The notes beneath the pieces were generated by a model. It had not been told where the DNA came from. It made no database searches and was given only the letters and a program-made list of their open reading frames with translations. Made by a program: the position numbers and the translations under genes. A DNA stretch of 64,000 nt from Nocardioides iriomotensis. Its GTDB lineage: Bacteria; Actinomycetota; Actinomycetes; Propionibacteriales; Nocardioidaceae. Positions within the stretch are counted from its first letter, which is position 1; each line of letters opens with the position of its first letter. This document shows, piece by piece, positions 39,136 to 44,422 of the stretch. The stretch spans positions 62,001 to 126,000 of the forward strand of contig NZ_SDPU01000012.1 in assembly GCF_004168035.1 (NCBI RefSeq), given 5' to 3'.

Positions 39136-40440
39136 TCAGCGCTTGGACCGAGCGTACGGCGTGGGCGACCAGATGAGCGCGTCGCCGACGGAGCGCTCGC
39201 TGCCGCCGCTCACCGAGTTGGCGACCGCGCCGTTGATGGCCATCGTCGTGGAGCCGCCACCGTCGAGGTTGATGGCGTTGGTGAGGCCGAGCGACAGCGC
39301 GACCTGCGCCGTCTCCCGCAGGCTGGCGCCGACGCTGCTGGGCTGCCGGCCGTCGATGGTGACGATGCCGATCTGCCCGGCGTCGGTGCGACCGACGAAG
39401 GTGCGCGGGTGCCGCATGAACAGCGACGTGTCGCCGCGCGGGACGACCGCCACGCCGTCGCGGGTCAGCGTGAAGCGGCCGTTGACGCCGTACACCCACG
39501 GGCCGGTCGGGATCCGGTTGCCGAGCGCGTCACGCAGGCGCATGGTGCTCCGCAGGCAGGCCTTCTTCTCGCCGGCCTTCTTCTTGGCACGGCTGATCGT
39601 CCAGAGGCGCTCGGTCTGCTTGCCGGTGGCCTGGAGCGACGTCTGCACCGGCGTGAGCGTGGTGCCGCGCTCCTTCTCCCGGCTGACCACGCAGCCGCTC
39701 CGGCCGAGCACGACCTCGACGCCCTTGCCCGCGGGCGTGGTCTCGCTGAACTTCGCCGGCAGCTTGACCACGTCGCCGTCCTGGCGGCAGTTGGTCGGGT
39801 CCTTCTTCTTGGCGCACTTCGACGGCACGACCGGAGGGTGGCCGAGGAACTCGAGCTTGAGGCCGTTGCCGGAGCGCTTGTTGACCATCCGCTCCTGCCA
39901 CGCGAGCTTGCCGGGGAACGTCACCTGGTTGGTGCGGGCGTCCATGAGCATCGACACCTCCGCGGTGCCGCTGCTCGGCTCGCTGAGCAGGTCCCCGTCG
40001 TACAGGCCGAGACCGACGGGGTCTCCGGGGAACGACCGGCTCGCGGTGAAGGTGAAGTACGACGCGTTGACCGCGACCTGGGCGCCGGAGTACGCCGCGA
40101 GCTGGCTGACCGTCTCGGTCGGGGCGAGCGTCGGGCCGTAGGTGGCGCGCAGGCTGCCGACGGCCCCGGCGGCCGGGTCGATCGTCACCATCCGCACGCG
40201 CCACGGGCCGGTGCGCGTGGTCTGGTAGTCCTTCTCCTTCGCCTCTCCGGTGCCGCGCGTGATGTCGGTGAGGCTCACGCCGGGCGCGATGGGGGTGACC
40301 GTGCGCGTCTCCGGCAGCGCCGGGTCACCGAGCGGCAGCCCGGTGTTCTTGGACTGGGCCGGGCCGGCGGTCAGCGACGCCGCCACCAGGGCGGTCAGGC
40401 CGACGGCGGCGGCGACAGGACGGACTCGGGATCGGCGCAC
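39136..40440 (-). CDS. Secreted phosphodiester glycosidase (NAGPA/DUF2233-like)
   Basis: A 434-residue exported protein with a signal peptide (about residues 1-30). The C-terminal half matches the phosphodiester glycosidase family: QVAVNASYFTF (with the Asn), PRGDTSLFM, GIVTIDGRQP and the NLDGGGSTTM signature of the active site. Related enzymes remove N-acetylglucosamine phosphodiester caps or cleave exopolysaccharide phosphodiesters. A role in teichoic or capsule polysaccharide turnover is speculative. GTG 40440 is chosen for Shine-Dalgarno spacing to GGGGGAG; GTG 40443 is adjacent. Confidence 0.86.
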   Translation of the reverse strand: MRRSRVRPVAAAVGLTALVAASLTAGPAQSKNTGLPLGDPALPETRTVTPIAPGVSLTDITRGTGEAKEKDYQTTRTGPWRVRMVTIDPAAGAVGSLRATYGPTLAPTETVSQLAAYSGAQVAVNASYFTFTASRSFPGDPVGLGLYDGDLLSEPSSGTAEVSMLMDARTNQVTFPGKLAWQERMVNKRSGNGLKLEFLGHPPVVPSKCAKKKDPTNCRQDGDVVKLPAKFSETTPAGKGVEVVLGRSGCVVSREKERGTTLTPVQTSLQATGKQTERLWTISRAKKKAGEKKACLRSTMRLRDALGNRIPTGPWVYGVNGRFTLTRDGVAVVPRGDTSLFMRHPRTFVGRTDAGQIGIVTIDGRQPSSVGASLRETAQVALSLGLTNAINLDGGGSTTMAINGAVANSVSGGSERSVGDALIWSPTPYARSKR

Positions 40441-40513
40441 CACGATCTCCCCCGGGGTATGGGACGGACACAGAAGTAAAGAGTGTGACTCATGGTGCAC
40501 GCGGGACGCCACA

Positions 40514-40538
40514 CCGGGGCCGCGTGTCGGTGCCCCGG
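40514..40538. repeat. 7-bp perfect GC-rich hairpin in the leader of the GGDEF-EAL gene
   Basis: CCGGGGC (40514-40520) and GCCCCGG (40532-40538) enclose an 11-nt loop. It lies about 100 nt before ATG 40638, in the region shared with the divergent glycosidase promoter. It could be a leader hairpin or terminator; no family is identifiable. Confidence 0.5.
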
Positions 40539-40637
40539 CCACGAGCCGCTTCGCACCCACTCGTCTCGTATTCCTCAGGTCCCGCGCCCGCCTGCCGATG
40601 AGGGCTTCCGGCGGATCAGTCCGAGGGGAGAACAGGC

Positions 40638-42617
40638 ATGGCGTGGTCGCAGCGCGCGGCGCGGCGGCGCGTGCACAAGGGCACGACGCTGCTGGCGATC
40701 TATGCCGCGGCGAGCCTCGTCCCGGTGCTCGCCCTCGGTGTCACCCTGGTGCGCGGGTACCACGACGCCGGCATCACGCGCGCCACCTCCCAAGCCTTGC
40801 ACCAGGTGGCGGTCATCGAGCGGATGGTCGTCTCACCCGCACTTCGCGACGCCGATTTCAGCCAGGGTCTGACCGACTCCGAGGAGTACTCGCTCCGGCT
40901 CTCCACCGACCTCGCCGTCTACGACGGCGGAGTGGCGCGACTGCGCCTCTATGACTTCGACGGCCACGTGGTGTTCGCTGAGAACGGCGACACAGGCACC
41001 GTCCTCGCGGACGACCCTGCCTTCCAGCGAGCCGCCAACGGCAAGCCAAGTGCGACGCTTCTCGACTCGGGCGACGCAAGCTCTCGTGGCGCGGTCATCC
41101 GAGTGCTCGCGCAAGTGGTTCCCGAGGCCACCGGTCGCGCGCTCGGCGTGCTGGAGGTCCAGCTGACCTACGACAAGATCGCCGACCAGATCGCCGCCGA
41201 GACCCGCGCCGCGATCATCCGGCTCGCGATCGGCCTGGCCGCGCTCTACGCCGTCCTGGGCCTGATCTCCTGGTGGACCACCCGGGCCCTCGGCCGGCAC
41301 GCGGCGGCGAAGGAGCACCAGGCTCTGCACGACCCGCTGACCGGGCTGCCGAACCGCGACCTGTTCCGGCGGGTGTCCGAGCGTGCCGTGGAGCGCGCGC
41401 AGGGCCGCGGCGCCCTGGTGCTCGTCGACCTCGACCGGTTCAAGGAGGTCAACGACACCCTCGGCCACCACGCCGGCGACGAGCTGCTGCAGGTGGTCGG
41501 CCGGCGGCTGCAGGAGTCGCTGCGCACCGACGACACGGTCGCGCGGCTCGGCGGCGACGAGTTCGGCATCCTGCTGCCCGGTGAGTCCGACCGGGCCGCG
41601 ACCGTCGAGCTGCTCACCCGCGTGCGCGAGGCCGTCGGCGCCGAGATCACCCTCGACGACTCCACCCTGACCGTCGACGCCAGCTTCGGCATCTGCTTCT
41701 TCCCCGACGACGCCGACACCGTCGAGGACCTGCTGAAGAACGCCGACGCGGCGATGTACCAGGGCAAGCACGGACCCACCGGCGTGGTCGTCTACGAGGA
41801 GTCGGCGGCGCGTCCCGCGACCGACTCGCTCGTGCTCCAGCGCGAGCTGCGCCGCGCGATCGCCGACGACCAGCTGCTCCTGCAGTACCAGCCCAAGCTG
41901 CACCTGAGCACCGGCCAGGTCAGCTGCGTGGAGGCGCTCGTCCGCTGGCAGCACCCCGAGCGCGGCCTGCTCCCGCCGATCGACTTCCTGCCGGTAGCGG
42001 AACGGAGCGAGCTCATCGAGCCGCTGACCCGCTGGGTCCTCCGCCAGGCGCTCACCGACTGCGCGCGCTGGGCCGAGGCCGGCCGGCCGTGGTCCGTCGC
42101 GGTGAACGTGTCGGCTCGCAACCTCGCGACCCTGGAGTTCGTCGAGGTCGTGCGCGAGACGCTCGCCGCGACCGCCGTACCGCCGGAGCGGCTGTACCTC
42201 GAGATCACCGAGACCGCCGTCGCTTTCGACGCCGGGCAGGTGCGGGAGGTGGTCGAGCGGCTGGCCGAGATCGGCATCTCGGTGTCGGTCGACGACTTCG
42301 GCGTCGGCTACACCGGACTCTCCCAGCTGCGCGCCATGTCGATCCGCGAGATCAAGATCGACCGCGCGTTCATCGCCAACCTCGAGGAGAGCCAGCAGGA
42401 CCGCGCGATCGTCGCGTCGGTCATCGACCTGGCGCACGGCCTCGGCTGCACCGTCACCGCCGAGGGCGTCGAGACCCAGCAGGTCGCGGACTGGCTCGCC
42501 GACGCCGGCTGCGACCACGGCCAGGGGTACCTGTGGCTGCGGCCCTCGCCCTGGCAGGAGATCGTCCCGGCCGGCGAGGCGTCCGGCACCGCTCTCCCCG
42601 CGTCACCCGCACCCTGA
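40638..42617 (+). CDS. Membrane GGDEF-EAL protein (diguanylate cyclase/phosphodiesterase)
   Basis: A 659-residue signalling protein. A membrane helix near residues 15-35 and another near 185-205 flank an extracellular sensory region of about 145 residues. The GGDEF domain (about 225-385) has intact GGDEF and, five residues upstream, an RTDD product-inhibition site. The EAL domain (about 400-640) has EALVRW, NVSARNL, LEITETA, DDFGVGY, KIDRAF and AEGVETQ, so all catalytic residues appear present. It should make and degrade c-di-GMP in response to an external cue. ATG 40638 has GGGGAG upstream. The binding-protein gene starts 17 bp after it. Confidence 0.95.
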   Translation: MAWSQRAARRRVHKGTTLLAIYAAASLVPVLALGVTLVRGYHDAGITRATSQALHQVAVIERMVVSPALRDADFSQGLTDSEEYSLRLSTDLAVYDGGVARLRLYDFDGHVVFAENGDTGTVLADDPAFQRAANGKPSATLLDSGDASSRGAVIRVLAQVVPEATGRALGVLEVQLTYDKIADQIAAETRAAIIRLAIGLAALYAVLGLISWWTTRALGRHAAAKEHQALHDPLTGLPNRDLFRRVSERAVERAQGRGALVLVDLDRFKEVNDTLGHHAGDELLQVVGRRLQESLRTDDTVARLGGDEFGILLPGESDRAATVELLTRVREAVGAEITLDDSTLTVDASFGICFFPDDADTVEDLLKNADAAMYQGKHGPTGVVVYEESAARPATDSLVLQRELRRAIADDQLLLQYQPKLHLSTGQVSCVEALVRWQHPERGLLPPIDFLPVAERSELIEPLTRWVLRQALTDCARWAEAGRPWSVAVNVSARNLATLEFVEVVRETLAATAVPPERLYLEITETAVAFDAGQVREVVERLAEIGISVSVDDFGVGYTGLSQLRAMSIREIKIDRAFIANLEESQQDRAIVASVIDLAHGLGCTVTAEGVETQQVADWLADAGCDHGQGYLWLRPSPWQEIVPAGEASGTALPASPAP

Positions 42618-42634
42618 GCCCGGAAGGCACCACC

Positions 42635-43522
42635 ATGCTCGTTCGCAGGACCGCCCTCGCGTCACTGTTGCCCGCCCTCCTGCTCGCCGGCTGCGCCGCC
42701 GCCGGGTCCGAGCCGGACCAGCAGGACGCGCCGAGCCTGAGCGTCGACGAGGACCTGCACGCGCTGCTCCCCGCCGACGTCCGCGAGCGCGGCGTGCTGC
42801 GCATCGGCACGGACCCGTCGTACGCACCGATGTCGTCGTACGGCGAGGACGGCCGCACGATCGTCGGCATGGAGCCGGACCTCGGTGACGCGCTGGGCGA
42901 CGTCCTCGGCGTCGACGTGCGCTTCGTCGACACCGACTTCACCACGATCCTCCCCGACGTGGACACCGGCCGCCTCGACCTCGGCATGTCCGCCATGACC
43001 GACACGCCGGAGCGCGCGGAGCAGGTCGACTTCGTGAACTACTTCAGCGCCGGCACCTCGATCCTGGTGCAGCGGGGCAACCCCGCTGGCGTGTTCGAGC
43101 TCGAGGACCTGTGCGGCAAGGTCGCGGCGGTCGAGAAGGGCACCACGCAGGTCGACCTGCTCGACCGCGCGCAGGGCCGGTGCGACGACGAGCCGATCGA
43201 CGTGCGCACCTACGGCACCAACTCCGATGCGCTGGTCCAGCTCCGCACCGGCCGCGCCGCCGCCGTCCTCAACGACCTGCCCCCGGCAGCGCTGCTGGTC
43301 ACCGATCCCGACACCAAGGCGAACTACCAGCTCGCCTCGACCGCGCAGCTCGAGCCGGGGCTGTACGGCGTGGCCGTCGACAAGGACCTGCCCGGGCTGC
43401 GGGACGCCGTCCAGGCGGCGCTGGAGGTCCTCGTCGACCGCGGCGTCTACGCCGACGTGCTGGCCCACTGGGGCGTCGAGGACGGCGCCGTGCAGGACGT
43501 GACGGTGAACTCGGGTCGCTGA
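42635..43522 (+). CDS. Orphan family-3 solute-binding lipoprotein
   Basis: A 295-residue lipoprotein with lipobox LLLAGC (Cys near residue 20). The mature protein resembles polar amino acid binding proteins: LRIGTDPSYAPMS, GMEPDLGDAL and the DLGMSAMTDTPERA segment. No ABC permease or ATPase gene is adjacent, so import is doubtful. It lies 17 bp after the GGDEF-EAL gene with GGAAGG ahead of its ATG, so the two form a pair. A ligand-sensing role coupled to that membrane protein is inference. Confidence 0.88.
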   Translation: MLVRRTALASLLPALLLAGCAAAGSEPDQQDAPSLSVDEDLHALLPADVRERGVLRIGTDPSYAPMSSYGEDGRTIVGMEPDLGDALGDVLGVDVRFVDTDFTTILPDVDTGRLDLGMSAMTDTPERAEQVDFVNYFSAGTSILVQRGNPAGVFELEDLCGKVAAVEKGTTQVDLLDRAQGRCDDEPIDVRTYGTNSDALVQLRTGRAAAVLNDLPPAALLVTDPDTKANYQLASTAQLEPGLYGVAVDKDLPGLRDAVQAALEVLVDRGVYADVLAHWGVEDGAVQDVTVNSGR

Positions 43523-43546
43523 CGCGACCCGGGGGCCGCGGACGGC

Positions 43547-43552
43547 TAGCGT
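43547..43552 (+). promoter_or_regulatory. -10 box of a likely leaderless merR transcript
   Basis: TAGCGT lies 6 nt before ATG 43559 with no Shine-Dalgarno sequence, giving the regulator its own promoter after the binding-protein gene. Confidence 0.5.
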
Positions 43553-43558
43553 TCCCCC

Positions 43559-44422
43559 ATGGACGAGCGGGAGCGGAGCGGTGACGCCGTGCTCTCGATC
43601 GGCGACCTCGCGGAGCGCACCGGCGTCAGCACCGCGACGCTGCGGACGTGGGAGACCCGCTTCGGCTTCCCCGAGCCCGTCCGGCGGCCCGGCGGTCACC
43701 GCCGCTACACCGAGCGGCACGTCGCCGAGATCGGCGTGGTGCTGCGGCTGCGCGCCCAGGGCCTGGGGGTCCACGCCGCGATCGAGCAGGCCCGCACCAC
43801 CGCCACGGCCCCGCACCAGTCGATCGTCGGCGCGCTGCGCGCCACCCACCCCCATCTGCGCAGCCAGCCGCTGAGCAAGCGGACCCTGTTGGCGCTCACG
43901 CACGCGATGGAGGACGAGAGCGCTGCCCGGGCGCAGCGTCCGGTGCTGTTCGCGAGCTTCCAGGAGGCGCGGTTCTACGAGGTGGCCAGCCGCCGGTACG
44001 CCGACCTCGCCCGCACCGCCGAGCGGGTCGTGGTGCTCGCCGACTTCGACCGGCACGGCAGCGTCGACGAGACGCCTGTGCGGGTCGCCGTGCCGCCCGA
44101 CTCGCCGGTACGGCGTGAGTGGGTGCTGGTCTGCCAGAGCGCCACGCACCAGGCCTGCCTGGCCGGCTGGGAGGTGCCCGGCCAGGCCGGCGTGCCCGAC
44201 GGCGACCGGCGCTTCGAGACGGTCTGGAGCACGGCCCCCGACGTGGTGCTCGCGGCGGCCCGGGCGTGCACCGACATCCTCGCCGCGGTCGGCGACGAGG
44301 ACGTCCGGATCCTCGCCGGCGAGCTCGCGGTGCGGTGGGACGGCGAGCCGGTGCGCGCGGCCGACCCGCAGAGCGTGACCGGCCTGCTCGACCGCGCGCT
44401 GCACTACCTCGACGCGCGCTGA
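43559..44422 (+). CDS. MerR-family regulator with DICT domain
   Basis: A 287-residue regulator. The N-terminal MerR helix-turn-helix (about residues 13-80) has SIGDLAERTGVSTATLRTWE and the GGHRRYTERHV wing. The C-terminal half (about 108-250) resembles the DICT sensory domain: SKRTLLALTHAMEDES, PVLFASFQEARFYE, a strand with LADFDRH, then REWVLVC and AGWEVPG. DICT is named for its association with diguanylate cyclases and two-component systems, matching this location. Its targets and ligand are unknown. Confidence 0.87.
   Translation: MDERERSGDAVLSIGDLAERTGVSTATLRTWETRFGFPEPVRRPGGHRRYTERHVAEIGVVLRLRAQGLGVHAAIEQARTTATAPHQSIVGALRATHPHLRSQPLSKRTLLALTHAMEDESAARAQRPVLFASFQEARFYEVASRRYADLARTAERVVVLADFDRHGSVDETPVRVAVPPDSPVRREWVLVCQSATHQACLAGWEVPGQAGVPDGDRRFETVWSTAPDVVLAAARACTDILAAVGDEDVRILAGELAVRWDGEPVRAADPQSVTGLLDRALHYLDAR

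Follow-up and report, generated by a model that had tools for sequence, protein, structure and literature searches.

Within a 64,000-nucleotide stretch of the Nocardioides iriomotensis genome (contig NZ_SDPU01000012.1, positions 62,001 to 126,000; hereafter the window), a gene for a membrane GGDEF-EAL enzyme of cyclic di-GMP (c-di-GMP) metabolism is directly followed by a gene for an amino-acid-type solute-binding protein (SBP) carrying a lipoprotein signal. We consider it likely that the two products form a two-component receptor in which the lipoprotein acts as the outside sensor and switches the c-di-GMP enzyme. A first-pass annotation of the window had proposed that these two genes act as one circuit with a downstream MerR-DICT regulator, whose gene lies 36 bp beyond the lipoprotein gene. 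All three open reading frames were confirmed on the forward strand (Table 1), with the expected Pfam domains and a third-position GC content of 0.94-0.97, which is a strong coding signature. A scan of the locus for sigma-70 promoters and terminators gave no match.

The enzyme and lipoprotein genes are conserved as a pair

Relatives of the lipoprotein were sought in 7 genomes of the genus, 341 of the family and samples of 391 genomes of the order and 393 of the class, and about 85,000 species were additionally scanned by a pattern-based method. Close relatives (58-65% identity) were found in five species (G002, G005, G077, G706 and G795, where G000 denotes the 4.71 Mb source genome of the window), and G706 and G795 belong to a second family (f43). 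Each of the five encodes a close enzyme homologue immediately upstream of the SBP gene, on the same strand. The adjacent pair therefore occurs in six species, which represent three genera and two families, always with the enzyme gene first, and its proteins are 54-65% identical across species. The two genes overlap at their start and stop codons in five of the six pairs, through ATGA (G002, G706 and G795), GTGA (G077) or TGATG (G005), where the overlapping lipoprotein starts were assigned from the reading frame. Only in G000 is the overlap replaced by a gap, which is 17 bp long and contains GGAAGG.

The outer neighbours, named from their sequences, vary by lineage. G005 has a dihydrolipoamide dehydrogenase-like oxidoreductase, G002 a GAF/phosphatase-type regulator together with a transporter of the major facilitator superfamily type, and G077 GGDEF proteins and one that resembles cation-efflux proteins, whereas both G706 and G795 have a regulator of the CRP type and NUDIX/metallo-hydrolases. 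None of the tested neighbours from the window was found near the five other pairs. Because the outer neighbours differ and those of the window are absent elsewhere, it is the pair and not the region that is conserved, which points to selection on the pair. By a rough estimate, the chance that any of the 21 GGDEF matches in G000 lies beside an SBP_bac_3 gene at random amounts to a few percent, too little to account for six conserved cases. The divergent NAGPA-domain gene at 39136-40560 was considered as an output partner and rejected, as it was not found near the other pairs.

In G706 (L123:4705-5382) and G795 (L124:4446-5123), the gene immediately before the pair, in the same orientation, encodes a CRP/FNR-like regulator, identified from sequence. 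In G077 (L023:33-3053), the pair is preceded by two more GGDEF/EAL genes of the same orientation, making a local c-di-GMP gene cluster. Two genomes, G223 (L100:3552-7685) and G293 (L101:3824-7971), carry two GGDEF-EAL paralogues in tandem that share this sensor type, and another GGDEF protein nearby, without an SBP.

The lipoprotein is separate from transport SBPs

The sole Pfam family matched by the lipoprotein is SBP_bac_3 (1.5e-29), and its signal peptide features an LLAGC lipobox with the cysteine at residue 20. An AlphaFold2 model (predicted local distance difference test (pLDDT) score of 84) matches the fold of ornithine, glutamine and arginine binders, and the nearest solved structures are likewise amino-acid binders. 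Residues D60, Y63, F102, T122, R127 and D214 align with D10, F13, F50, T70, R75 and D157 of the Escherichia coli glutamine-binding protein (GlnBP), which we take to be ligand-contacting residues. These six core pocket positions are conserved in all six pair SBPs, and a ligand with alpha-amino and alpha-carboxylate groups is therefore predicted. By its profile, modelled two-lobe fold and residues for alpha-amino/alpha-carboxylate recognition, the lipoprotein is an SBP_bac_3 protein and a predicted amino-acid binder.

The first-pass annotation also stated that this lipoprotein has no transporter partners, and inspection of its neighbourhood bears this out. No amino-acid ATP-binding cassette (ABC) permease or ATPase gene adjoins it, and the closest BPD_transp_1 gene of G000 lies at a distance of 7 kb on the opposite strand, next to another binding-protein gene. 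G000 encodes six SBP_bac_3 proteins, four of them adjacent to permease genes, and the window gene is not among these four. No recognisable ABC transporter gene was found beside the pair at any of the six loci, where the downstream side in G005 is unseen because the contig stops approximately 0.3 kb 3' of the lipoprotein gene. The pair SBPs thus lack the accompanying permease and ATPase genes of an ABC substrate-binding subunit. The other permease-less SBP_bac_3 gene of G000 ends a conservon-like operon (L114:2591-7426; G000:C26, approximately 209.6-214.4 kb), after genes for a histidine kinase, a Roadblock/LC7 protein, a DUF742 protein and a small GTPase-like ATP_bind_1 protein; this operon may be another SBP-gated signalling unit.

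For SBPs at greater distance (≤43% identity), the neighbourhoods inspected show a permease gene immediately downstream and, in most cases, an ATPase gene after it. Phylogenetic analysis placed the pair SBPs in one group with 100/99 support, containing all four of those in a first tree and all six in a larger tree. In the input to the larger tree, the G795 enzyme had 13 extra front codons, with a stop in the added leader and little effect on the alignment columns, and the G005 lipoprotein started a few codons late. SBPs of Microbacteriaceae and other Nocardioidaceae with approximately 40% identity were considered as further pairs and rejected, as they fall outside the pair group in the trees; the family- and class-level proteins of this kind that were inspected carry permeases downstream. 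Branch order within the pair group is mostly unresolved, so joint transfer of the two genes from one family to another is plausible but not proved.

Four residues (S67, N196, S197 and N213) set the pair SBPs apart from the transport SBPs first compared with them, and the ligand or the docking surface of the pair proteins may consequently differ from those of transport SBPs. N213, which occupies the position of H156 in GlnBP, recurs in a few class-level transport SBPs (in VNDFP, LNDYP and MNDYP motifs), so it is not diagnostic alone. Residues such as these four provide a handle for finding more pairs.

A predicted bifunctional enzyme with a Cache-like sensor

The GGDEF and EAL domains of the enzyme both have strong Pfam support. 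An RTDD motif at residue 296 precedes GGDEF at residue 305 with canonical I-site spacing, and the EAL motif at residue 432 is accompanied by DDFG, EITE, IKID and AEGVE, so that the complete catalytic motifs and RTDD inhibitory site described in the first-pass annotation are indeed present. With GGDEF, an RxxD I-site and the EAL catalytic residues, the protein is a predicted bifunctional GGDEF-EAL enzyme. The GGDEF, I-site and EAL motifs are kept in the three orthologues compared (L046, L045 and L023).

Hydropathy peaks at residues 15-41 and 189-215 indicate two transmembrane helices that flank a segment of approximately 150 residues. Since a sequence search found no credible relative of this segment with a solved structure, the sensor was judged by fold comparison. 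An AlphaFold2 model built from a two-sequence alignment (pLDDT 77) features a helix-flanked five-strand domain, and Foldseek returned the extracellular domain of WalK as its nearest structure, with the sensor domains of CitA and DctB also similar. The model supports a single Cache-like fold, as opposed to the double Cache domain hinted at by a weak Pfam match to dCache_1.

Proposed mechanism and alternatives

In the proposed receptor, the membrane-anchored lipoprotein would bind an amino-acid-like solute outside the cell or, alternatively, a self-made compound with an alpha-amino and an alpha-carboxylate group. In one ligand state, it would dock on the single-Cache-like extracellular domain of the enzyme, and this docking would switch the dimeric enzyme from one of its two activities, diguanylate cyclase or phosphodiesterase, to the other and thereby set intracellular c-di-GMP. 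We infer the ligand class and the physical docking, as well as the direction of switching, which is not readable from sequence. The first-pass annotation had the lipoprotein carrying its ligand to the enzyme; docking of the ligand-loaded lipoprotein on the Cache-like domain would be a better description. A genome search of G000 returned no PilZ match, despite the 21 GGDEF matches, so the output must use other kinds of c-di-GMP receptor.

Several points weigh against a lipoprotein-gated receptor. Only six pairs are known, the sensor fold derives from the two-sequence alignment, and the Cache-like domain could bind a ligand on its own. Identities of the enzymes and SBPs co-vary (r = 0.87 across 15 species pairs), which agrees with a coupled pair but would be expected from common ancestry alone. 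In addition, the group that contains the pair enzymes in the enzyme tree (100/100 support) includes a close orthologue from G081 (52% overall identity) without an adjacent SBP gene, which shows that the enzyme can occur partnerless; the simplest explanation is that G081 lost the SBP gene.

The G081 enzyme would also agree with an alternative in which the Cache domain of the enzyme itself binds the ligand, as Cache domains often do with small ligands, and the lipoprotein serves only in delivery or buffering or has no connection with the enzyme. We regard this as improbable, given that the pair stays together in two families, that the SBP has no other visible partner, and that the closest solved fold belongs to WalK, a kinase with membrane partner proteins. 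The lipoprotein might instead be a spare capture protein for an ABC transporter encoded elsewhere, with its position providing shared expression only. Its ordinary SBP fold and binding residues would allow this, as would the four permease-adjacent SBP_bac_3 genes of G000, but a constant partner and gene order in six species from two families, gene overlaps in five of them, the lack of an adjacent permease and some conserved residues unlike those of transport SBPs make it an unlikely explanation.

It is somewhat more likely than not that the pair represents an undescribed actinobacterial receptor class, in which a dedicated amino-acid-type lipoprotein gates a bifunctional enzyme via a single Cache domain, encoded by a coupled two-gene cassette that has been inherited and probably transferred between families. 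The input is not known for most c-di-GMP enzymes, whereas here a likely sensor subunit is encoded beside the enzyme, and this subunit can be purified and directly screened for ligands. No example of a binding protein acting on c-di-GMP in this Gram-positive lineage was found in the open-access papers searched.

The MerR-DICT regulator is most likely a bystander

The regulator matches MerR_1 (2e-15) and DICT (4.6e-21). The first-pass annotation had proposed a search of gene neighbourhoods for the trio, and this upheld the linkage of enzyme and lipoprotein in six species but not that of the regulator: no MerR-DICT gene was found beside any of the five other pairs, where the downstream side in G005 is cut by the contig end. 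The best homologue in G002 is approximately 2.8 Mb from the pair, and that in G005 is on a different contig. The family is common and unlinked to the pair, occurring in 156 of the 341 genomes of the bacterial family (E≤1e-40), and the three-gene linkage was rejected on these grounds.

Relatives of the regulator (L106, L111, L112 and L113) are encoded near NAD(P)-binding/NmrA-like, amine-oxidase-type flavoprotein, oxidoreductase, photolyase or polyprenyl-synthase genes, which suggests that the family consists of light or oxidative-stress regulators. In sequence, the DNA-binding part of the regulator most resembles those of CarH and similar proteins. A TAGCGT hexamer resembling a -10 element (43547-43552) ends six bases ahead of the regulator ATG and suggests a putative leaderless start of its own. 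The DICT domain has been listed in a review among sensory domains without discernible purpose (PMC8846402), so the domain name is no evidence of a role in c-di-GMP signalling, and a search of the open-access literature for "DICT domain" with MerR found nothing. A single circuit of all three genes in the source species, with the regulator recruited recently, would agree with the shared strand and short gap, and with G000 holding a second DICT-MerR in the usual setting of the family, but is very unlikely in view of the absence of linkage elsewhere, the candidate promoter, the gene neighbourhoods of its relatives and its DNA-binding part, which is nearest CarH and similar regulators. The MerR-DICT gene is most likely a bystander and a separate unit.

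Table 1. Features of the enzyme-lipoprotein locus, in window coordinates (aa, amino acids)
Feature	Position	Strand	Evidence
Membrane GGDEF-EAL enzyme, 659 aa	40638..42617	+	GGDEF, RxxD I-site, full EAL motif set
Extracellular sensor of the enzyme (predicted), residues 38-188	40749..41201	+	Hydropathy, AlphaFold2 model, Foldseek, weak dCache_1
GGDEF domain, residues 229-378	41322..41771	+	PF00990, 1.3e-43
EAL domain, residues 402-636	41841..42545	+	PF00563, 2.5e-71
17-bp junction, GGAAGG ahead of the lipoprotein ATG	42618..42634	+	Sequence
Orphan SBP_bac_3 lipoprotein, 295 aa	42635..43522	+	Pfam, lipobox, pocket residues
MerR-DICT regulator, 287 aa; neighbour outside the conserved unit	43559..44422	+	Pfam, neighbourhood comparison

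Comparison with known systems

The closest parallels are binding proteins that control c-di-GMP enzymes in Gram-negative bacteria. In NspS-MbaA, ligand-bound NspS docks on MbaA and favours its cyclase activity, while free MbaA is a phosphodiesterase (PMC8967002); the genes overlap by 16 bp in Vibrio cholerae and 3 bp in Sinorhizobium meliloti (PMC9993111). The window pair similarly combines a membrane GGDEF-EAL enzyme that has an extracytoplasmic domain with an adjacent or overlapping SBP gene. However, NspS is a PotD-type polyamine binder and nspS is the first gene, whereas the window SBP is an SBP_bac_3 lipoprotein, the enzyme gene comes first in all six pairs and the lineage is Gram-positive. 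Because SBP family and gene order differ, the window pair is not a member of the NspS-MbaA system.

A binding protein is also paired with a dual-function enzyme in Vibrio parahaemolyticus, where extracytoplasmic ScrB switches ScrC from a single operon (PMC10269520). In this Gram-negative system, ScrA makes the signal molecule. No common signal-synthesis gene was recognised beside the pairs, whose loci share no third gene, although no search aimed at ScrA was made. In Salmonella, ArtI is needed for the response of STM1987 to arginine (PMC8846402), which again links an amino-acid-binding protein to a Cache-domain c-di-GMP enzyme. The description of ArtI is that of a putative periplasmic binding protein for arginine and not of a partner dedicated to the enzyme within one operon, and STM1987 is listed as a cyclase with a dCache domain, while the window enzyme is a GGDEF-EAL protein with a single-Cache-like domain.

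Within the Actinobacteria, the GlnH-GlnX-PknG system of mycobacteria and corynebacteria uses an amino-acid SBP that signals to a kinase via a membrane partner (PMC6069109). As proposed for the window pair, an amino-acid-binding lipoprotein signals through a membrane partner, which in that system is encoded in the same operon, but the output is a Ser/Thr kinase instead of c-di-GMP. Signalling from SBPs to receptors is already viewed as general (PMC9602780), and, by analogy with NspS-MbaA and ScrB-ScrC, we propose that the lipoprotein gates the enzyme.

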